Positions 6,874-22,633 of a DNA stretch of 26,842 nt are shown piece by piece; position 1 is the first letter of the stretch, and the number at the start of each line of letters is the position of its first letter. The translations under genes and the position numbers were made by a program. The DNA comes from a virus, in IMG/VR virus record IMGVR_UViG_3300021142_000152, positions 1 through 26,842 of that record; one strand, 5' to 3'. The notes beneath the pieces were generated by a model, which saw nothing but the letters and a program-made list of their open reading frames with translations, did not search any database and was not told the DNA's origin.

Positions 6874-8871
6874 ATGTCCACCTATCACCTCGATTATGAG
6901 ACCCGCAGCCGGGCCGACTTGAAAAAGGTTGGAGCCTATCGCTATGCTGCCGACCCGAGCACTCGCATTCTGATGTTCGCTATCGCCCGGGACGAAGGTG
7001 AGCCGCTGCTGTGGGACTGCTTGAACGGTGGCAAAGCAGCACTGGCGATGCTGCAAGAGGCTCTGGCCGATAATGAGGCTCTGTTTTGGGCACATAATGC
7101 CGAGTTCGAGCGGGCCATTTCCAAGTACCGCATGAAAGCCGATCTGGGGCTGGACCCACCCCCGGTAGAGAAGTGGCGGTGCACGGCAGCTCTGGCTCGC
7201 AAGGCGGGGCTGCGCTCGAGCCTCGCCAACGTGGGCGAAGACCTCAATCTCGGCCAGAAGAAATTCGGCGAGGGCTACCAGCTCATCCGCCTGTTCAGCA
7301 TCCCGCAGAAGGCCACCGGGGAGTTTATCGAGCCTCACGACCAGCCGGACAAGTTCCTGCGTTTCGGCGAATACTGCCTACAGGATGTCCGCAGCGAGCG
7401 CGAGGTACATGCCGCCCTAAAGCCATTCGAGCTGAAGAGTACACCGCTGGAGACCTTCCTGTTCGATGCCCGGATGAACGATCGAGGCATCCCGGTGAAC
7501 GTGGCCGCGCTGCGACACGCCAAGAAGATCATCGAAGAAGTGCAAACCTCTGTAAGCAAGGAATTTGTAGAACTCACGGGTCTCCAGCCCACCCAGCGGG
7601 ACAAGGTCAAAAACCTGCTGGAATCGATCTACGGCGTGAAGCTGACCAACATGCAGTCCAAGACGCTGGACGAGGCGATTGCCTACCACGAGGAGGCCGA
7701 GGAAGAGGAATGGGAGGCTGAGGCCGAGCCGGATAACGCGATTGCACGCCGAATCCTGTTCCTCTACAAGCAGGTCAGCTTCGCCGCCGTCAAGAAGGTA
7801 CAGACCATGCTCGATTGCGTCTGTGACGATGGGTTCATCCGAGGCATGTTCCTCTACCACGGTGCCGGCACAGGCCGCTGGACGGGTCAGAAGGTTCAAC
7901 CCCAGAATTTCCGCCGTCCGACTATCAAGGATGCCGATGGAGTGTATGCCCTGCTCTGTCGGGGTGCCTCCGCCGAGGAGCTGGAGATGGTGTACGGCAA
8001 CCCGCTCGAGGCGATTGCCAACTGCATCCGCAACTTCATCCACGATATCACCTGCCCGATGTTCGATGTAGACTATGCCGCTATCGAGGCCCGCATCATT
8101 TGCTGGCTAGCCGGGCAGGAGGACGCTCTCGAGCGGTTCCGCAAGGGCATTGATAGCTACTGCTACATGGCCAGCATAATTTACAACCGCTCGATGGACC
8201 AGATCAAGAATCCATCCCCGGAGCGCGAGCTGGGAAAGCGCACCGTGCTAGGGTGCGGCTTCGGCATGTGGTGGCCCAAATTCCAGAAGACCGCTTGGGA
8301 CCAAGGTCGGGTGCGGCTCCCCGATGAACTTGCCGAGCGAGCGGTGCTGGCCTATCGAGATTCCCATAGCGAGGTTGTCCAGTTCTGGGACGACTGCGAT
8401 GCGGCGGCTCGGCTAGCGATCGCTACGCCCAACCGAGTGTTCAAGGCAGGCCGGGTCACCTTCCGCACCATCCGGGTGGGCCAAATTCCGTACATGTTGA
8501 TGGCCTTGCCCTCGGGCCGCAACCTCGCCTATCCTCACCCCCGAATCGAGAAGCTGGAAGGCGATGATCGCCACTCCATCACCTACTACGGTCAGCTCCC
8601 CGGCACCACCAAGTACGGTCGCGTGAAGCTCTACGGCGGAAAGCTCGCCGAGAATGCTACGCAGGCCACCGCTGCCGACCTCATGGCCCATGGGGCCGTA
8701 ACCGCCGAGAAGCGGGGCCACACTATTTGGGGACTGGTGCACGACCAAGCCCTTGGCCGAGCCTACGGCCCGCTCGAGTCTTTCGTCTCCTCGCTCACTG
8801 ATTTGCCTTCGTGGGCGGAGGGACTCCCTATCAAAGCTGAAGGCAAAATCGTCCCCTACTACAAGAAATGA
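6874..8871 (+). CDS. Family A DNA polymerase with 3'-5' exonuclease
   Basis: The 665-aa product is a phage polymerase I-type replicase. The exonuclease begins at the N-terminus with HLDYETRS (Asp7, Glu9) and continues with AHNAEFER. Polymerase motif A is MFDVDYAAIEAR (catalytic Asp400). Motif B is RELGKRTVLGCGFGM (Arg451, Lys455). Motif C is LVHDQ (His623, Asp624), where the usual Glu is Gln, a variant I believe is common among phage polymerases of this type. It ends with LPIKAEGKIVPYYKK. It would synthesise the phage genome together with the primase-helicase. The stop overlaps the next ATG (ATGA at 8868-8871). Confidence 0.92.
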   Translation: MSTYHLDYETRSRADLKKVGAYRYAADPSTRILMFAIARDEGEPLLWDCLNGGKAALAMLQEALADNEALFWAHNAEFERAISKYRMKADLGLDPPPVEKWRCTAALARKAGLRSSLANVGEDLNLGQKKFGEGYQLIRLFSIPQKATGEFIEPHDQPDKFLRFGEYCLQDVRSEREVHAALKPFELKSTPLETFLFDARMNDRGIPVNVAALRHAKKIIEEVQTSVSKEFVELTGLQPTQRDKVKNLLESIYGVKLTNMQSKTLDEAIAYHEEAEEEEWEAEAEPDNAIARRILFLYKQVSFAAVKKVQTMLDCVCDDGFIRGMFLYHGAGTGRWTGQKVQPQNFRRPTIKDADGVYALLCRGASAEELEMVYGNPLEAIANCIRNFIHDITCPMFDVDYAAIEARIICWLAGQEDALERFRKGIDSYCYMASIIYNRSMDQIKNPSPERELGKRTVLGCGFGMWWPKFQKTAWDQGRVRLPDELAERAVLAYRDSHSEVVQFWDDCDAAARLAIATPNRVFKAGRVTFRTIRVGQIPYMLMALPSGRNLAYPHPRIEKLEGDDRHSITYYGQLPGTTKYGRVKLYGGKLAENATQATAADLMAHGAVTAEKRGHTIWGLVHDQALGRAYGPLESFVSSLTDLPSWAEGLPIKAEGKIVPYYKK

Positions 8872-11170: not shown

Positions 11171-11526
11171 TTTCCGCCTTGTTCCTAGCCGCACTCATTC
11201 AGGTGGAATCCGGTGGCAACGACCTTGCCATCGGTGACCACCAGCAAGCTCTCGGCTGCTTGCAGATTCACCGCGAGGTCGTCCTCGACGTTAATCGTCT
11301 TACAGGCCGCAGCTACAAGCACGTAGATGCTTTCGACCGAGATAAGGCCATCCGGATTGCTACCGTGTACCTTCAGCACTATGGTGCTCAGCTCGGCCAC
11401 GAGCCGACCTTGGAGGATTACGCTCGCATTTGGAATGGCGGGCCACACGGCTGGCGCAATCCGCACACCGTGGCCTACTGGCACCGCGTCCACGCCCAAC
11501 TCCTCCGTCTTTCTCCCCACCAATGA
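11167..11526 (+). CDS. Lytic transglycosylase/lysozyme-like protein
   Basis: The 119-aa product matches the lysozyme-like SLT fold. It has LIQVESGGNDLAIGD with the catalytic Glu14, then ALGCLQIHREVVLDVNR, and a C-terminal YARIWNGGPHGW motif typical of this fold. It has neither signal peptide nor cell-wall-binding domain, so export would need a holin. It would cleave peptidoglycan glycan strands and is the best endolysin candidate here. Oddly it is on the plus strand ahead of the base-modification genes, far from the lipoprotein and holin-like genes on the minus strand at 14.9-17.5 kb. Confidence 0.78.
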   Translation: MISALFLAALIQVESGGNDLAIGDHQQALGCLQIHREVVLDVNRLTGRSYKHVDAFDRDKAIRIATVYLQHYGAQLGHEPTLEDYARIWNGGPHGWRNPHTVAYWHRVHAQLLRLSPHQ

Positions 11527-12329
11527 ACATCCCACCTGACTTCACCATCTACATCCGCACGTATAAGCGTGACAAGATCGTCACCTTTCAGTATATCCCG
11601 CCTGAATGGTACCCGTACACCCGGCTGGTCGTTCAGGAACGGGATAAAGACCGTGTCAAGGATAGCCCCGTCGAGAAGCTAGTGCTGCCGCCCGAAGTAG
11701 ATAACCTCGGCAAGACAATGGACTGGTTGATGGCGAACTGCCCCACCAAGAAGATGCTCTCCCTAGACGACGACATCACCGTCAACGTCTTGAAGAACTT
11801 CAACCAGTATAACCTGCGCGGCATCACCCCCGAGGAGATGCATGAGGCATTGGCGCGCTGTGCGTTCATGCTCGATATCTATCCCCACTTCGGGGCGGGC
11901 GATCGGCGCGAGGCCCACATCAAATACTTGCACCGCATCCTCGAATGCACCCGGTGCAATCGCTGGCATGGATTCAACGTCGAGTTCTTTCGAAAGAACT
12001 GCCCGGATTTCCGCTTCGCCTCCGTCCCGAATATTGAGGACTACAACATGATTCTGTACCTCCTGACACATGGATACCCGAACGCCATTGACTGTCAACT
12101 GTACATCGGCGACGCCTTCGGCAGCAACTCGCCCGGTGGCTGTCACGATTTGCGCGAGGAATTGGGTGATGGGTACGATGCCAAAGCTCTACAGACTCTG
12201 TACCCGGCCTTTGTTTCTCTCGAGACCAAGGAGACCAAGACCAAAGGCGGTATTTGGAATCGGACGGACGTCCGCGTACAGTGGAAGAAGGCATACGAGT
12301 ACGGCATGGCGAATTGGGGGCTGCTATGA
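11523..12329 (+). CDS. GT-A-type glycosyltransferase-like protein (TAGT-like)
   Basis: A 268-aa product starting at the ATG overlapping the preceding stop. The N-terminal IYIRTYKRDKIVTF and the LGKTMDWLM helix lead to KMLSLDDDI, with Asp82-84 as a GT-A metal/nucleotide-sugar motif. A CTRC pair (Cys142, Cys145) and GGCHDLREELGDGYD follow. This pattern resembles phage glycosyltransferases of the TET-associated (TAGT) type that decorate hydroxymethylated bases; the precise family is uncertain. It is fused by overlap to the modification gene at 12326, which supports a role in sugar addition to DNA. Alternatives are a capsid or tail glycosyltransferase. Confidence 0.5.
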   Translation: MNIPPDFTIYIRTYKRDKIVTFQYIPPEWYPYTRLVVQERDKDRVKDSPVEKLVLPPEVDNLGKTMDWLMANCPTKKMLSLDDDITVNVLKNFNQYNLRGITPEEMHEALARCAFMLDIYPHFGAGDRREAHIKYLHRILECTRCNRWHGFNVEFFRKNCPDFRFASVPNIEDYNMILYLLTHGYPNAIDCQLYIGDAFGSNSPGGCHDLREELGDGYDAKALQTLYPAFVSLETKETKTKGGIWNRTDVRVQWKKAYEYGMANWGLL

Positions 12330-13189
12330 ACGAGCTGTTTCCTTTGCTCCGTGAGGAGTTCATCGCCTTCCTCCGCGCCCGCGAGCGGATGCGGCTACAC
12401 AAGGAGGTCGTAGGTGGCCCCGGCCCCCACTCAACTGACCCCCTCCTCGCCAGCCACCACTTCTGCAACGTCAACCGCGAGGACGATGCCGTCACCCGCT
12501 GGGTGCACGAGAACGTCCGGCTGCGGTTCCAGAACAGCTCCCGCAACTTTGTCGTGACGCAGTTGACGGTGGCCCGGATTTTCAACCATCCTCCGGCTTT
12601 GAAGGTAATCATCCCAGTAGAGAACCCAACGCTGGCCGCTCGCCATCTCGAGCAGTACGAGGCTCAGGGCAACAAGGTCATGCGCGGAGCGTACATGATG
12701 CCCGTCCGGGGCGAGGGCAAGGGCCACCGCGTGGTGAGCTACTACCTCGAAACCGTTATCCCCGCCGTCCTGCGGCTCGATTTCACCTACTGCGTTTCCC
12801 TCGTCAACGTGGCCGAGAAGTTGATGACGGTCAAGAACCTCGGGGACTTCCTCGCCAACCAGATCTGCACTGACCTCCGCTATATGCCCCGGTGGGGCCG
12901 CACCTTCATCGACTGGGAGATGTTCGTACTGGCTGGCCCCGGTACCAAGCGCGGCATCAACCGATATTATGGCCTTGACCTTGAGCAGACTGCCCCCTTA
13001 CCTTGGTACACCCGGCAGCTGATGCTCATCCGCAAAGAGATGCCGGACGAGTTCGCCGAGGTTTTCCTCGACCCGAACAACCTTTCCAACTGCTTCTGCG
13101 AGTTTGATAAGTACCGTCGCGCCCAAGACCAACTCTTTGCGCAAAAGAAACCCACCCTCCGCCACTATCATGGAAATTCACTCCCGTAA
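12326..13189 (+). CDS. 5-hmdU kinase helical-domain / alpha-GPT-PPlase-like DNA hypermodification protein
   Basis: The 287-aa product has a basic N-terminal helix (EEFIAFLRARERMRLHKE) followed by DPLLASHHFCNVNREDDAVT. That block is what I recall from the helical domain of 5-hydroxymethyl-dU DNA kinase and alpha-glutamyl/putrescinyl-thymine pyrophosphorylase proteins. Those enzymes act on hmdU in phage DNA, the kinase phosphorylating it and the pyrophosphorylase replacing the activated group with an amine. No Walker A is visible, so this would be the helical enzyme alone and a separate P-loop kinase would be needed. Its place between a glycosyltransferase-like gene and a ThyA homologue fits. 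The 3' end overlaps the ThyA gene by 20 bases. Confidence 0.6.
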   Translation: MNELFPLLREEFIAFLRARERMRLHKEVVGGPGPHSTDPLLASHHFCNVNREDDAVTRWVHENVRLRFQNSSRNFVVTQLTVARIFNHPPALKVIIPVENPTLAARHLEQYEAQGNKVMRGAYMMPVRGEGKGHRVVSYYLETVIPAVLRLDFTYCVSLVNVAEKLMTVKNLGDFLANQICTDLRYMPRWGRTFIDWEMFVLAGPGTKRGINRYYGLDLEQTAPLPWYTRQLMLIRKEMPDEFAEVFLDPNNLSNCFCEFDKYRRAQDQLFAQKKPTLRHYHGNSLP

Positions 13190-14159
13190 TACCAACACGC
13201 TGATGCCCGTAGTGTACAAACGGCTCCTCAACCAAGGAGATCGTATGGCCTCCCGCAACGGCCCGGTGCTCGCTTTTCCCGAGCCCGTCTCCATCTGTCT
13301 CACCCATCCTTGGGAGCGGGTGAACTTCTCTTTCACCCGTGATGCTAACCCATTTTTCCACGTCATCGAGTCGCTGGCGATGCTCTCCAACACCAACTCG
13401 GTGCCGATCCTGAGCTATTTCGCCAAGAACATGCTCAGCTACACTGACGACGGTAAGATCTACAATGCCTTCTACGGTACTCGACTCCGGGAGACCTACG
13501 GCGACCAGCTGAGTCTGGTCATCGAAGGGCTCCGCGCCAACCCGGATAGCCGTCAGGAAGTTGCGCTCCTTTGGGACGCCCGCGATCTGCGCCGCCAGAC
13601 CAAGGACAAAGCCTGCAACCTTGCGCTCCTGTTCAGCATCCGCAAGAACGCGCTCTGCATGACCACCTTCAACCGCTCAAATGACGCCATCTGGGGTGGG
13701 GTGAGCGGAGCCAACATCGTCCACCTCTCCTTCTTTCAGGAGTATGTCGCGCTAGCTCTGGGTCGGCCCCAAGGCCCATGGTGGCATATTTCCAACAACC
13801 TGCACGTGTACCCGGAGAACCCGAAGTGGTATTCGATGTGCAACACCGTGTTCGCCCCCGACCCGTATTCGGAGAACGACCTCAACCGGGTCTCCCTCTT
13901 CGAGAACTTGGGGGTGTTCGAGGTCGAGATGTACCACTTCATGAGCGAGCTTGACGCCCTCGTAGCCGGGCGGAACGACGCTTTCCGCGACATCGGTTAC
14001 ACCGAGCCGTTCATCAAGGACGTCGCCGTCCCCATGGTCAAAGCATGGTGGCACTACAAACATGGCGAACTCGCTCATGCCCACTTCCTTGCGTTGTCCA
14101 TCCTGGCCGACGACTGGAGAAAAGCCGCCACTCAGTGGCTCAAAAGGAGAGAAAAATGA
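13170..14159 (+). CDS. Thymidylate synthase-family dUMP (hydroxy)methylase
   Basis: A 329-aa ThyA-fold enzyme. Visible signatures are RDANPFFHVIESLAML, DDGKIYNAFYGTRLRE, the nucleophile Cys149 (KDKACNLAL), phosphate-binding FNRSNDAIWGG (Arg169, Ser170, Asp172), Asn182 in GANIVH, and NNLHVY (His212, Tyr214). Asn182 matches the dUMP-selecting Asn of thymidylate synthase rather than the Asp of dCMP hydroxymethylase. The Cys is followed by Asn, not the usual His. Beside hmdU-type genes, a dUMP hydroxymethylase making 5-hmdUMP is more likely than plain dTMP synthesis, but sequence alone cannot separate these. The ATG at 13170 is chosen because the family usually starts shortly before the SRNGPV block; an ATG at 13245 has a good AAGGAG site and remains possible. 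Confidence 0.75.
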   Translation: MEIHSRNTNTLMPVVYKRLLNQGDRMASRNGPVLAFPEPVSICLTHPWERVNFSFTRDANPFFHVIESLAMLSNTNSVPILSYFAKNMLSYTDDGKIYNAFYGTRLRETYGDQLSLVIEGLRANPDSRQEVALLWDARDLRRQTKDKACNLALLFSIRKNALCMTTFNRSNDAIWGGVSGANIVHLSFFQEYVALALGRPQGPWWHISNNLHVYPENPKWYSMCNTVFAPDPYSENDLNRVSLFENLGVFEVEMYHFMSELDALVAGRNDAFRDIGYTEPFIKDVAVPMVKAWWHYKHGELAHAHFLALSILADDWRKAATQWLKRREK

Positions 14160-14677
14160 TCCAGAATCTTCGTAACACGTTGGAGGCAGGGAGAGTTATA
14201 CGCTACCATGCCGCCACTTCGGTCCAGCCGCAAACGGTGGGCCTTCATGCCTATGGGGTAGCCACCCTAGCCCTGTACCTTACCGGGGGCAAGGCGTCGT
14301 CTGCATTGCTCGTGGAGAGCCTCCTGCACGACGCTGGGGAGTATTTCACGGGCGACATCCCGTTCACCTTCAAAAAGGCTCACCCCGAGATTCGGGAAAT
14401 ACTCCATAAGTTTGAGACTGCTGCCCGCGCCGAAGAGACGATCCTCCCGGAATCCAAGCTCACCCCCGAGGAGCAGGCCGTCCTTAAGATCTGCGACACC
14501 CTTGAGGGGCTCATCTGGTGTGCGATACACGAGGAGAAATGCGGCCCGGTGTACCGCCGTTGGGTGGGGGCGTATCGGGTAGCCCGCGTCAAGTTTACGG
14601 AGGTCGTGCCTGAAGACGTCTGGCAGCGGGCCGACGCGGTCTACATGCACTACAACAACGGTCTTGCCCCACTATGA
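14156..14677 (+). CDS. HD-domain YfbR-like 5'-deoxynucleotidase
   Basis: The 173-aa HD hydrolase contains VIRYHA (Arg16), VGLHAYGVA (His31), LLHDAGEYFTGDIP (His58, Asp59, Glu62, Asp67) and a later ICDTLEG (Asp114), the metal-ligand set of YfbR/YfdR deoxynucleotidases. These remove phosphate from deoxynucleoside monophosphates. In this cassette it could deplete dTMP or dCMP so that the modified nucleotide enters DNA. An AGGAG-like site precedes the ATG, which overlaps the ThyA stop. Confidence 0.8.
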   Translation: MIQNLRNTLEAGRVIRYHAATSVQPQTVGLHAYGVATLALYLTGGKASSALLVESLLHDAGEYFTGDIPFTFKKAHPEIREILHKFETAARAEETILPESKLTPEEQAVLKICDTLEGLIWCAIHEEKCGPVYRRWVGAYRVARVKFTEVVPEDVWQRADAVYMHYNNGLAPL

Positions 14678-14931
14678 AAAACGCGCTCGAAAAACAAGTC
14701 GGAGGCACTCACTACAAGATGCCTATCCAGCACGTGGAGTTCTGCCAAAGGAACAAGCTCCTCTGGTGCGAAGCCGCTGCCATCAAGTACATCGTCCGGC
14801 ACCGCCAGAAGAACGGGCGGCAGGACATCGAGAAGGCCATCCACTACTTGGAGCTGCTTCTCGACCTCGAGTACCCTACGACGCCTTCTTCGTCTCCCGA
14901 TACGCAGTCACCCGGTTCACTCGTTTCGTGA
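14674..14931 (+). CDS. DUF3310 protein (nucleotide kinase-like)
   Basis: An 85-aa product with KQVGGTHYKMPIQHVEFCQRN, LWCEAAAIKYIVRH and a DIEKAIHYLELLLDLE helix, the canonical DUF3310/SaV-like family. The family is believed to include T7 gp1.7, a nucleotide kinase, so phosphorylation of dTMP or hmdUMP is possible here; this is family-based inference. It closes the plus-strand operon, and its last 56 bases overlap the minus-strand winged-helix gene tail to tail. The tail after residue 68 (TTPSSSPDTQSPGS) lies in that overlap. Confidence 0.75.
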   Translation: MKNALEKQVGGTHYKMPIQHVEFCQRNKLLWCEAAAIKYIVRHRQKNGRQDIEKAIHYLELLLDLEYPTTPSSSPDTQSPGSLVS

Positions 14932-18868: not shown

Positions 18869-21800
18869 TTAGTTGAGGTTCGTTCCGCTGATGATCCATT
18901 CCGTCGTGGCGATCTTCAGCGCGGTGGCGACACCGTTAGCCGCAAGGGTACGAGAACCGGTTGTGCCAGCACCCGCCAAACGCATGGTGTCCGATGTGAT
19001 GGCGATGGTGACGGTGCCCGCGCTGTTCTGGTTGACGAACGTAATGGCTGTGCCAACGGCAAAAGCCACGCTGCTGTTGGCCGGAATGGTGAACGTGCGG
19101 GCTGTCGTGTCTGCGCTGGGGTGCAGGATATGCTTGCCGGAATCAGTTGCGACCAGCGTGTAGGCTGCGCTCTGCGAGTTCTGCGGGATGATGCGGACGT
19201 TGCCGATAGAATCGCCCAGCGTCGTGAATGAACCCGCTGCGGCTGTCGTTCCACCAATTGCCGGAGGAGACGCCAAGTAAGTGCTGAAGCCCGTGCCACT
19301 CACCGTCGAACTTGCGGAAAGCGTCGTGAATGAACCCGCTGCGGCTGTCGTTCCACCAATTGCCGGAGGAGACGCAAGATAAGTTGAAAAGCCGGTTCCG
19401 CTTACCGTTGAAGAAGCCGAAAGAGTGGTAAACGCGCCCGTGCTCGGCGTAGTTCCCCCGATCGCCGGCGGGCTGGCGAGGTAGGTGGAAAAGCCCGTCC
19501 CGCTAACTGTTGAGGAGGCGCTCAGTGTCGTCGCCGCCACGGTACTTGCGATCGTGGCACCGATTGGCGTCGAATTGATACCCGTAGAAGTCAAAGTCCC
19601 AACGGTGACGCCGTTGACGGAAAATAGGTGAGACCCGCCCGTAGGAGTGTTGTAATACAAACTCACGTCGCTACCGCCTCCGCCTGATAGGGAGATCCCC
19701 GACGCAAAAACATTGGAATTGTTAAAACTCAAAACCCCATAGGTCGTTGAAGCGGAAAGATTGCTGAGCAAGATAGCGTTGGTTTGGCCTGACACTTTGG
19801 AGGTCAGCGACGTGAAAGCGCCCGTGCTCGGCGTAGTTCCCCCGATCGCCGGCGGGCTGGCGAGGTACGTCGAGAAGCCCGTCCCGCTCACCGTCGACGA
19901 CGCGCTGAGGGTCGTGAAGGCGCCCGTGTTGGCTGTCGTTGCGCCCACCGTGCCGTTAATGTTGATAGAAGCGGTGCCGGTAAGGTTGGTGACCGTGCCG
20001 CTGGAGGGCGTGCCTAGTGCGCCGCCATTCACAACAACCGAACCAGCCGTGCCAACATTTACACCTAGCGCGGTTTGGACGCCGGTGCCAAAGGTGATTG
20101 CTGATTGATAGTCCGTGCCAGCCGTAGCAATCGCCAGCGTGTTAGCCCCCGTCCGCTTAATAATGCCGGTAGAGCTTAGACCCGTGATGGTATCCTGCGT
20201 GATACTACCGCCAAGGGTCGTGCTTGTCCCGGCAATCGTGATAGACGAGTTGGACAGCGAAGCGTTGGCAATCGCCGAAATACTGAGAACGCCCGCCGAG
20301 GACATGGACATTGTTGCGCCGCTGCCCGACAGCGAAACCACGCCAAACGCCGTGCCACCCGCATTACCAACGTAAATCTGACCAGCCGAAGGAACGGTGT
20401 TGGGGACAATGCTGGCTTTGGTCTGGACGTCATTCGTGACGCTGCCCAAGCCAACCTGTGTAGCAGTAATACCTGTAAGACCAGAGCCGTTGCCGGTGGT
20501 CGTCAGATATGTGTTTGTATCAACCGAAAGGGCACCAGTCCCACCCGAGGTCTTTACAAAGCCATTGCTCGTCAGATTAGACAGCGTGCTGATGTTTTGG
20601 CTGGTATTTACTGTGACTGTATTTACCGTGCGGGTAAGGCCAGTAGAGAACGTCAACGGAACTTCGTAATCCGTGCCCGCCGTTGCAATCGCCAGCGTAT
20701 TGGCTCCGGTGCGCTTGACGAGGCCAGTCGAGGACAAGCCGGTAATCTGGTCTTGAGTGACGCTTCCGCCCAAGGCTGTGCTGTTGCCAGCGATGCCGAT
20801 GGTGCTGTTGGCGAGCATCGTGTTCGTCACCTTGCCCGCGCCAATGGCCGTGGTGATGGCCGTCGTGCCCGAGCCGCTGACATCGCCCGACAGAGTGATG
20901 GTCTGGTTGCCGGTCAGGTATGTGTTGGTGTCGAAGGCCCAAGCGGTGCCGTTGTATCGCAAGAGGCCCGCCGAAAGGACGGGAAGGACCGAACCGCGCA
21001 GCCCCGTGACCGTCAGACTGGGGGAAAGGGAAGTGGCCCCCGAGGCCGTTCCACTGGCATCGCCACTGGCCGTCCAAGTGATGCTCTGATTGCCGGTCAG
21101 GTAGGTGCTGGTGTCCAGCGCAAAGGTGCCTGCTGCCGTCATCTTGACGAAGCTCGTGGAGGCATAGGTCAGGCCGGAGAGGCTGGTCAAGTTCGTGGCG
21201 AGAGGTTGGTAAGTGCTGGCGGCTGCGCTCGTGGTCAGATAGGTGTTGGTATCGATGCTCAATGCCCCGGTGCCGCCCGAGGTCTTCACGAAGCCGTTGG
21301 TCGTGAGGTTCGACAAGGTGCCGATGTTCTGGCTGGTGTTGACCGTGACGGTGCCCGAGGTAATGGTCAGGCCGGTGGAGAAGGTCAGCGGGGTCTGGTA
21401 GTCGGTGCCCGCCGTGGCCGCGCTCAGGGCCGTCCCGTTGCCCTTGACCATGCCGGTGACGGTGGTGGAGAGGGTGATGGCCGGGGTCGTGGTGGCGGTG
21501 GCGACCGTGCCCGCGAGTCCGTTAGCACTCACCACGGAGACCGAGGTGACAGTGCCGCCCGAGCCGGTGGCCATCAGGGTGCCGCCGCTGAAGCTCAGGC
21601 CCGAGCCAACTGTGACGTTGCTGAACCCACCAGTGCCGTTGCCATAGAGGATGCTGGTGCCCGAGGTGGCCGGGGCATAGCTGCTGGCATCAAAGGCCCA
21701 AGCAGTGCCGTTGTAACGCAAAAGACCCGACGCGAGGGTCGGGAGAGCCTTGCCCAGCAGACCGCCAACCGTGGGACTGGGATAACTGCCAGAAAGGTCG

Positions 21801-22633
21801 CCGGAGGCCGTGCCCGAGGGCGGTAGGGAAGAGGGTGTCCCGGTCAGTTTGGAATAGGCCAGCGAGGTCAGCCAAGTGGGGTTGGCGTAGCTGCTGCCGG
21901 TCGAGACCCCATCAGTGATGCCATAGCCGCTCAAGGTGGTCGGGGTGCCGGTGATGGATGACCATGCCCAAGTGGTCGGTGCCCCGGTCAGCTTCGAGTA
22001 GGCCAGCGCGGTAATCCACGAGGGGTTGCTGTAGCTGCCCGAGGTGCTCACGCCATCCGTGATGCCATAGCCCGACAGCGTGGTCGGGGTGCCAGTGATG
22101 CTGCTCCAAGGCCAAGTCGAGGGCACGGTCGGCTGGACCACCCATGAGCGCACCCCGGCGGTCGTGCTGCTCAGGACATAGCCGTTCACGCTCGGGTCGC
22201 CCAGCGAAGGCTCCTTGCCGTTCAGCGCGGTCTGGAGGTCGGTCTGGTTGGACAGGGTACCGGTAATCTGCCCCCACACGGCGATAAAGGGCGGCGCACC
22301 CGTAATCTTGCTCCAAGCGAGCGAGGTAATCCATGCCGGATTAGCGTAGCTGCTCGAGGTGCTCACGCCGTCTGTGATGCCGTAACCGGAAAGAGTGGTG
22401 GGTGTGCTGGTGATCTGGCTCCACGGAACAGTGCCTCCGGGGGCGATATTCGTGGCGATAATTTGGCCGGTGCCTGTCGCGCTTAAACTTTCACCAGAGG
22501 GGACGGTCAGGGAGCTATCAATGGCGTTGGAGCCGTTGTCGGTCCGCCGCTGGACGTTCTTGTAGGAGGGATACACGGTCTGCCCCAGTACGAGCACCGG
22601 GAGCAAAAATGCAAATAGGAGAATCTTTTTCAT
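18869..22633 (-). CDS. Long repeat-rich tail fibre protein with signal peptide
   Basis: A 1254-aa product, Ser/Thr/Gly-rich with beta-type repeats, as in long tail fibres. It starts MKKILLFAFLLPVLVLG, a predicted signal peptide, then QTVYPSYKNVQRRTDNGSNA. Three TPTTLSGYGITDGVS repeats (about residues 70-270) come next, then AGTDY/TFSTGLT/NTYLTTS-type repeats, then four copies of a 34-residue STVSGTGFSTYLASPPAIGG unit. The C-terminus (HPSADTTARTFTIP, TIAITSDTMRL, ATTEWIISGTNL) is a widespread phage fibre tip domain. It probably binds the host surface and cooperates with the glycine-rich protein 3 bases downstream. Confidence 0.82.
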   Translation of the reverse strand: MKKILLFAFLLPVLVLGQTVYPSYKNVQRRTDNGSNAIDSSLTVPSGESLSATGTGQIIATNIAPGGTVPWSQITSTPTTLSGYGITDGVSTSSSYANPAWITSLAWSKITGAPPFIAVWGQITGTLSNQTDLQTALNGKEPSLGDPSVNGYVLSSTTAGVRSWVVQPTVPSTWPWSSITGTPTTLSGYGITDGVSTSGSYSNPSWITALAYSKLTGAPTTWAWSSITGTPTTLSGYGITDGVSTGSSYANPTWLTSLAYSKLTGTPSSLPPSGTASGDLSGSYPSPTVGGLLGKALPTLASGLLRYNGTAWAFDASSYAPATSGTSILYGNGTGGFSNVTVGSGLSFSGGTLMATGSGGTVTSVSVVSANGLAGTVATATTTPAITLSTTVTGMVKGNGTALSAATAGTDYQTPLTFSTGLTITSGTVTVNTSQNIGTLSNLTTNGFVKTSGGTGALSIDTNTYLTTSAAASTYQPLATNLTSLSGLTYASTSFVKMTAAGTFALDTSTYLTGNQSITWTASGDASGTASGATSLSPSLTVTGLRGSVLPVLSAGLLRYNGTAWAFDTNTYLTGNQTITLSGDVSGSGTTAITTAIGAGKVTNTMLANSTIGIAGNSTALGGSVTQDQITGLSSTGLVKRTGANTLAIATAGTDYEVPLTFSTGLTRTVNTVTVNTSQNISTLSNLTSNGFVKTSGGTGALSVDTNTYLTTTGNGSGLTGITATQVGLGSVTNDVQTKASIVPNTVPSAGQIYVGNAGGTAFGVVSLSGSGATMSMSSAGVLSISAIANASLSNSSITIAGTSTTLGGSITQDTITGLSSTGIIKRTGANTLAIATAGTDYQSAITFGTGVQTALGVNVGTAGSVVVNGGALGTPSSGTVTNLTGTASININGTVGATTANTGAFTTLSASSTVSGTGFSTYLASPPAIGGTTPSTGAFTSLTSKVSGQTNAILLSNLSASTTYGVLSFNNSNVFASGISLSGGGGSDVSLYYNTPTGGSHLFSVNGVTVGTLTSTGINSTPIGATIASTVAATTLSASSTVSGTGFSTYLASPPAIGGTTPSTGAFTTLSASSTVSGTGFSTYLASPPAIGGTTAAAGSFTTLSASSTVSGTGFSTYLASPPAIGGTTAAAGSFTTLGDSIGNVRIIPQNSQSAAYTLVATDSGKHILHPSADTTARTFTIPANSSVAFAVGTAITFVNQNSAGTVTIAITSDTMRLAGAGTTGSRTLAANGVATALKIATTEWIISGTNLN
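19221..19526 (-). repeat. Three tandem 102-bp repeats in the long fibre gene
   Basis: Three consecutive 102-bp units encode 34-residue repeats (STVSGTGFSTYLASPPAIGG plus TT-AAAG/PSTG-SF/AF-TTL). The two units nearest the protein C-terminus (19221 and 19323) share one half of about 50 identical bases, while the other half differs mainly at synonymous positions. The third unit (from about 19425) differs throughout. This implies duplication plus partial conversion. Confidence 0.75.
19809..19910 (-). repeat. Separate fourth copy of the 102-bp fibre repeat
   Basis: This unit lies nearer the protein N-terminus, separated from the array by about 280 bases of fibre sequence. It shares a block of about 50 identical bases with the third tandem unit (the SPPAIGGTTPSTGAF half) but is diverged at synonymous sites in the other half. 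Confidence 0.65.
21830..22430 (-). repeat. TPTTLSGYGITDGVS repeats in the fibre N-terminal region
   Basis: Three copies of a WSxIT-TPTTLSGYGITDGVS-xxSYxNPxW-xTxLAxSK module are visible at about 22330-22425, 22010-22113 and 21870-21971. The last two are spaced by about 140 bases. The protein blocks are strongly conserved while DNA differs mostly at third positions. Typical of modular fibre shafts. Confidence 0.65.

Follow-up and report, generated by a model that had tools for sequence, protein, structure and literature searches.

A viral five-gene block with a candidate DNA-base glycosyltransferase in an exchangeable slot beside an HMUDK_hel protein

The IMG/VR record IMGVR_UViG_3300021142_000152, from a bacterial virus, is a stretch of 26,842 bases (here called the window, to which the coordinates below refer unless another contig is named). 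At 11523-14931 it carries a block of five genes that, in our reading, makes DNA containing 5-hydroxymethyldeoxyuridine (hmdU) and glycosylates this base rather than phosphorylating it, with the HMUDK_hel protein (hel) presenting the base to the transferase. We consider this explanation probable as a whole. We are fairly confident of one of its parts, namely that glycosylation of hmdU is the route used here, and lean toward the other, that hel would be a shared presenting subunit. Many viruses carry the block with a kinase in place of the sugar-adding gene, and this suggests an interchangeable slot around a shared helper protein. Its features are the following.

11523..12329, + strand: TAGT-like GT-A glycosyltransferase (P0001, 268 amino acids; phrog_842, homologs and fold), occupying slot X
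11766..11774, + strand: DDD motif of the glycosyltransferase (residues 82-84), the expected metal/nucleotide-sugar site
12326..13189, + strand: HMUDK_hel protein (P0002, 287 amino acids; PF18723), the predicted hmdU-DNA presenting subunit
13170..14159, + strand: predicted ThyA-fold pyrimidine hydroxymethylase, dUMP type (P0003, 329 amino acids; PF00303, phrog_5131)
13614..13616, + strand: codon of the catalytic Cys149 of the ThyA homolog
13713..13715, + strand: codon of Asn182 of the ThyA homolog, the uracil-type base-specificity residue
14156..14677, + strand: YfbR-like HD-domain 5'-deoxynucleotidase (P0004, 173 amino acids; PF12917, HD motifs)
14674..14931, + strand: DUF3310 protein (P0005, 85 amino acids; PF11753), the conserved final gene of the block

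All five open reading frames (ORFs) are present, and they overlap by 4 bases (glycosyltransferase/hel), 20 bases (hel/ThyA), 4 bases (ThyA/YfbR), and 4 bases (YfbR/DUF3310). An earlier note on this DNA had described a five-gene cassette with overlaps of 4 to 20 bases, and the ORF coordinates and profile matches confirm it; the gene identities likewise support its assignment to hmdU-type DNA base modification. Dozens of unrelated contigs repeat this gene order, which puts the set far outside what chance would produce.

The glycosyltransferase P0001 had been read as a GT-A-like enzyme with an LDDDI motif that could decorate a DNA base. In a profile scan it matched phrog_842, "beta-glucosyl-HMC-alpha-glucosyltransferase" (the T6-type DNA glucosyltransferase), with an E value of 3e-25. 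Its structural model has a GT-A fold (predicted local distance difference test score [pLDDT] of 89), for which Foldseek returned TarP, TarS, and GalNAc-T2 at E values of 1e-4 to 1e-5, and LDDDI occupies residues 81-85, with D82 and D83 invariant and D84 nearly so in 17 homologs. Fold and motif were thus read correctly, and the base-decorating role is supported as a reading of the sequence. The TAGT of Brevibacterium phage LuckyBarnes matches P0001 (E value of 7e-10), and P0001 is 40% identical to the TAGT of another locus (L029), the contig of which matches PF20691 at 4e-13. Because PF20691, the curated TAGT family of Pfam, gave no match to P0001 itself at an E value of 0.1, we call P0001 TAGT-like, a designation based on PHROG 842, intermediate sequences, and fold; we predict that it is an hmdU-DNA glycosyltransferase. 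A DNA pattern yielded close relatives of P0001 at 2 loci only, so the family was assembled from hel neighborhoods. It is quite improbable that the block serves only the nucleotide pool, with the ThyA homolog making dTMP, the virion DNA unmodified, and the glycosyltransferase directed at protein or host glycans: the glycosyltransferase is fixedly linked to hel and an hmdU-type ThyA in many viruses, and in T6 the substrates of the TAGT family are DNA bases (PMC13216743).

The rest of the phage genome could be inspected in IMGVR_UViG_3300020716_000011 (48,163 bases), to which the window is nearly identical from position 21506 of that contig on. Most 1-kb blocks agree at 100%, and identity is 97% in the incomplete block that closes the contig. 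The final 184 bases of the window resume at the contig start (position about 100); because the window end runs on into the contig start in this way, the contig appears to be a complete, circularly permuted phage genome. Its ORFs beyond the window, read by eye, have the look of head and contractile-tail genes. The 48-kb contig gave no match to PF18748 (the P-loop 5-hmdU DNA kinase), to our own 25-sequence kinase profile A4, or to PF18724 (the amino acid:DNA transferase [ADDT]), and the sole Walker A motif in its ORFs of at least 100 amino acids is that of the primase-helicase. The earlier note, having seen no P-loop kinase, had offered two options, a kinase outside the window or a different chemistry. 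The first is refuted by this apparently whole genome with its overlapping ends, and the second is borne out, because with neither kinase nor ADDT in the contig the chemistry is a different one. Its suggestion that the base receives a sugar or an amine holds for the sugar, whereas the amine loses its standing as an equal option, no amine-pathway gene (no ADDT) being found in the contig.

A divergent or host-borne DNA kinase might still complete the classical phospho-hmdU pathway, the glycosyltransferase then acting elsewhere, and a second kinase family, PF18747, does exist that is distinct from the PF18748 used in the search. We regard this as the least probable of the alternatives considered. 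The 48-kb contig has no small Walker A ORF (PF18747 itself was not searched directly there) and lacks ADDT, and the nucleotide-kinase-like ORFs near hel at other TAGT loci are only of the thymidylate-kinase type, none resembling an hmdU kinase.

The comparison of hel loci carries the argument further. Relatives of hel, collected by tblastn and degenerate-pattern scans, occur in several hundred IMG/VR contigs and in cultured phages (M6, YuA, Sonora, PhiW-14, Det7, LuckyBarnes, and phages of Bordetella, Rhizobium, and Microbacterium). In the 35 loci whose blocks were inspected, the genes follow the order X-hel-thyA-yfbR-DUF3310 with minor variations. X lies directly upstream of hel, or directly downstream in one TAGT group, and is a P-loop hmdU kinase, a TAGT-family glycosyltransferase, or a GT-B glycosyltransferase (PF00534 in L109); the flanking order thyA-yfbR-DUF3310 is shared by loci with each kind of partner. 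Among 198 distinct hel loci, 69 have the kinase, 49 a TAGT, and 10 a GT-B enzyme, and none has both kinase and TAGT. The chance of zero overlap is 5e-6 under independence for the 77 distinct hel sequences that made up the discovery set (32 kinase, 19 TAGT), 3e-6 after clustering of that set at 70% identity, 2e-6 in a replicate set of 121 further distinct loci scored with frozen models (37 kinase, 30 TAGT), and 1e-11 for all 198 combined if the loci are independent, values that are too optimistic: kinship among the loci and the fragmentary state of many contigs make them overstate independence, and the tree discussed below is the better argument. Searches of whole contigs again found no record with both (50 records; 17 kinase, 15 TAGT). 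In agreement with this exclusion, sensitive profiles run on whole records found the kinase in M6, PhiW-14, Det7, SH-Ab 15599, and the Rhizobium phages and a TAGT in LuckyBarnes, Nebulous, and Quartz. The pairing of glycosyltransferase and pyrophosphorylase-type gene had been taken as a possible new pathway, but the combination is not unique to this phage: it is a recurrent class (49/198 hel loci) that includes LuckyBarnes and several Microbacterium phages in culture.

On the hel tree, the partner changes between kinase and TAGT at least 13 times with 76 rows and 15 times with 115 rows, and the well-supported (starred) branches alone require about 6 to 9 changes. Two pairs of starred sisters differ in their partner: L089 (TAGT) and L096 (kinase), the hel proteins of which are 64% identical, and L037 (TAGT) and L082 (kinase), at 54% identity. 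The hel protein of the window falls in a starred clade of 10 with both kinase and TAGT members. Because the partner is swapped so often while the neighbors stay, these relationships are most simply accounted for by hel being a shared component that would handle the acceptor.

Several hel neighborhoods depart from this pattern. At L113 (2611-5376), two adjacent hel paralogs, one with an unusual N-terminal extension, occur where kinase, TAGT, and GT-B were not found, and near-identical solitary hel genes with none of the three nearby are present in L074, L087, and L090-L092 (contigs of 42-186 kb). A radical-SAM-like gene lies between the GT-B gene and hel in L047 (6998-7969), where a SPASM domain was confirmed, and in L079 (7060-7983), and may mean that the sugar or the base undergoes additional chemistry. 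In L080 (7096-8825), a 463-kb viral contig, hel stands beside an inosine-uridine nucleoside hydrolase.

The identity of the acceptor base turns on the ThyA homolog. P0003 matches the thymidylate synthase fold (PF00303; E value of 3e-12) and phrog_5131 (6e-84), and with the ATG start at 13170 both Cys149 and the dUMP-type Asn182 fall at exactly the predicted residues. In the PDB, P0003 is closer to the CMP hydroxymethylase MilA (E value of 9e-22) than to thymidylate synthases (4e-6). The Asn177 position of E. coli ThyA distinguishes dUMP enzymes from dCMP enzymes. The Cys is conserved in 169/169 aligned ThyA sequences (168 of them from other hel loci), and the specificity position holds Asn in 60/60 readable kinase loci, 46/49 TAGT loci, and 8/8 GT-B loci. 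Because Asn is found here and across all three kinds of locus, the acceptor base in this phage is most likely hmdU. The glycosyltransferase could instead act on 5-hydroxymethylcytosine (hmC), making this an ordinary T-even-like glucosyl-hmC phage with hel as a passenger. The name of phrog_842 does derive from a glucosyl-hmC enzyme, the best PDB match of P0003 is the CMP 5-hydroxymethylase MilA (5b6d), and the authors of the LuckyBarnes genome named the homolog there a dCMP-hydroxymethylase (PMC6588365), although it too has Asn at the specificity position. We nevertheless find this reading improbable: Asn182 is uracil-type and aligns to an Asp in MilA, 46 of the 49 TAGT loci share the Asn with every readable kinase locus, and P0003 is 41% identical to gp58 of Pseudomonas phage M6, an hmdU-derived phage.

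The hel protein P0002 had been likened both to hmdU enzymes and to a pyrophosphorylase. Only the former likeness holds: P0002 matches PF18723, HMUDK_hel ("5-hmdU DNA kinase, helical domain"), at an E value of 3e-32 (112.6 bits, cutoff 25; residues 10-267 against profile positions 5-275 of 281), while the pyrophosphorylase label is unsupported and no longer used by Pfam. Twenty-two residues are invariant in 59 hel homologs (P0002 and 58 others), and P0002 keeps every one (R19, D38, F46, N48, R51, D54, R84, N87, Y123, F175, D183, D196, GPG204-206, G210, CEFDK258-262, and R265). The AlphaFold2 model is all-helical and confident (pLDDT of 93), and the top Foldseek matches in the PDB are endonuclease III, a phage 5-phosphomethyldeoxyuridine (5-PmdU) glycinyltransferase (8z2n), and OGG1, all of them weak (E values of 0.26-0.65, probabilities of 0.57-0.75). 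Because these matches are joined by a hairpin-like G-containing segment near residue 171, the invariant GPG, and D196 about 25 residues past the hairpin, the model suggests that hel belongs to the helix-hairpin-helix (HhH) DNA-glycosylase superfamily, and base flipping would follow from such a fold. Homology between hel and ADDT was rejected by profile comparison (hhalign probability of 1.3%, not significant), leaving only the weak Foldseek link to an ADDT-type enzyme structure. A sequence search for solved structures of hel, the hmdU kinase, or TAGT found none.

The same features raise another possibility, that hel is a separate enzyme with its own step on hmdU DNA, such as a base-specific transferase or an editing glycosylase, common to both pathways and a subunit of neither. 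The glycosylase-like fold with invariant D183, D196, and GPG would suit an enzyme, the structural neighbor 8z2n is one itself, and in Det7 the hel and kinase genes are distant and nonadjacent. Yet the majority of kinase loci, and many TAGT ones, have the hel gene tightly overlapping the transferase gene, the sequence as we read it has no Lys where a bifunctional glycosylase would have one, and an active glycosylase would harm the phage's own DNA. We consider a separate enzyme unlikely, though more deserving of attention than the other alternatives.

P0004 matches PF12917 (E value of 1.6e-10) and has the HD motifs H31, H58-D59, and D114, as expected of the YfbR-like deoxynucleotidase named in the earlier note. 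P0005 matches PF11753 (7e-8), and DUF3310 is the final gene in most complete blocks. Its proposed role as a nucleotide kinase is unsupported: the 85-amino-acid sequence has no Walker A motif (G-x4-GK[ST]) and hence no P-loop, and "nucleotide kinase" is a PHROG label only.

Taken together, we propose the following sequence of events. Judging from its Asn/Cys pair and its kinship with M6 gp58, the ThyA homolog would convert dUMP to hmdUMP, and the YfbR-like HD enzyme would clear competing deoxynucleotides, probably dTMP and dUMP. hmdUTP would then be built into DNA instead of T, wholly or in part. After replication, the TAGT-like enzyme would move a sugar from a nucleotide sugar onto the hydroxymethyl group; the product would be a base-J-like glycosyl-hmdU, made with neither a phosphorylation nor an amino acid step. 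The hel protein would be a shared HhH-fold subunit, not confined to kinases, whose task would be to bind hmdU or flip it out and to offer it to the slot X transferase, be it an hmdU kinase (as in M6-like phages) or, elsewhere, a TAGT or GT-B enzyme.

Known systems offer partial parallels. LuckyBarnes (NC_047851) has adjacent genes for a ThyA homolog, two TAGT enzymes, and HMUDK_hel (gp38-gp41), situated after exonuclease-single-stranded DNA-binding protein-DNA polymerase, and no kinase in its genome; it differs in the order thyA-TAGT-TAGT-hel, in that YfbR and DUF3310 were not found near the cluster, and in a hel only about 24% identical to that of the window. In the M6 cluster for 5-(2-aminoethyl)deoxyuridine (5-NedU), hel (gp55), ThyA (gp58), and YfbR (gp59) follow the same order as here, but slot X holds the P-loop 5-hmdU DNA kinase gp54, ADDT (gp51) is present, and TAGT is absent. 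The T6 TAGT (PF20691) shares with P0001 the GT-A fold, the DDD motif, and an expected action on DNA bases; its assigned reaction adds a second glucose onto glucosyl-hmC in DNA (PMC13216743), whereas the expected acceptor here is hmdU. The T4 beta-glucosyltransferase glucosylates 5hmU in vitro (PMC4111573). The predicted product resembles base J, the glucosyl-hmdU of trypanosomatids, which is made by JBP hydroxylases acting on T in DNA together with JGT (PMC6449724), unlike the hmdU nucleotide that the ThyA homolog would supply here; no TET/JBP hydroxylase was among ten scanned proteins, in scans not aimed at TET/JBP. YerA41 was set aside as a precedent for a hexose on T and is a loose parallel only, as its fragment masses are unlike those of ordinary hexoses (PMC9023294).

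Several points weigh against our explanation, including the missing PF20691 match, the weak structural matches of hel, its nonsignificant comparison with ADDT, and the optimistic exclusion values given above. Of the 198 loci, 70 match none of the three models; some are fragments, and some carry the second kinase family. An example is L145, where PF18747 (5-hmdU DNA kinase 2) lies upstream of hel at 7207-7941, and PF18748 alone undercounts kinases. Myoviridae sp. ctUhy936 (MW202897; L120, 5776-8466) keeps a TAGT-thyA-HD-DUF3310-like order and has no hel gene in its record; because this natural comparison has the TAGT block without hel, hel is not always required for the glycosyltransferase. The three Asp-type cases among the 49 TAGT loci resemble Microbacterium phages, whose hel-TAGT loci with Asp-type ThyA (L126, 4558-5319; L115, 5102-5887; L152; L155) suggest hmC, and because this clade joins hel and TAGT to such a ThyA, hel may not be strictly hmdU-specific and could serve both pyrimidines.

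Apart from the block, the window encodes at 18869-22633 (- strand) a 1,254-amino-acid repetitive, tail-fiber-like protein in which blocks such as "ASSTVSGTGFSTYLASPPAIGGTT" recur.

A broader possibility, which we put forward tentatively, is that HMUDK_hel is a general, base-flipping adaptor for hydroxymethylpyrimidine DNA that has repeatedly been re-paired with kinases, GT-A enzymes, and GT-B enzymes, one-gene swaps changing the DNA chemistry and giving rise to undescribed prokaryotic genomes with base-J-like glycosyl-hmdU. A 2019 paper described glucosylated 5hmdU as unreported in phages, and the many solitary TAGT homologs in phages have been called potentially novel transferases (PMC13216743, 2026). 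If our explanation is true, glycosylated hmdU would be widespread in bacterial viruses, "kinase helical domain" would be a misnomer for a shared adaptor, and a single slot would set the DNA chemistry. A simple genome rule would follow, in which the kinase, TAGT, or GT-B gene beside hel predicts the modification of the phage, and the cultured phages that join a glycosyltransferase to hel, LuckyBarnes among them, open this prediction to direct test.

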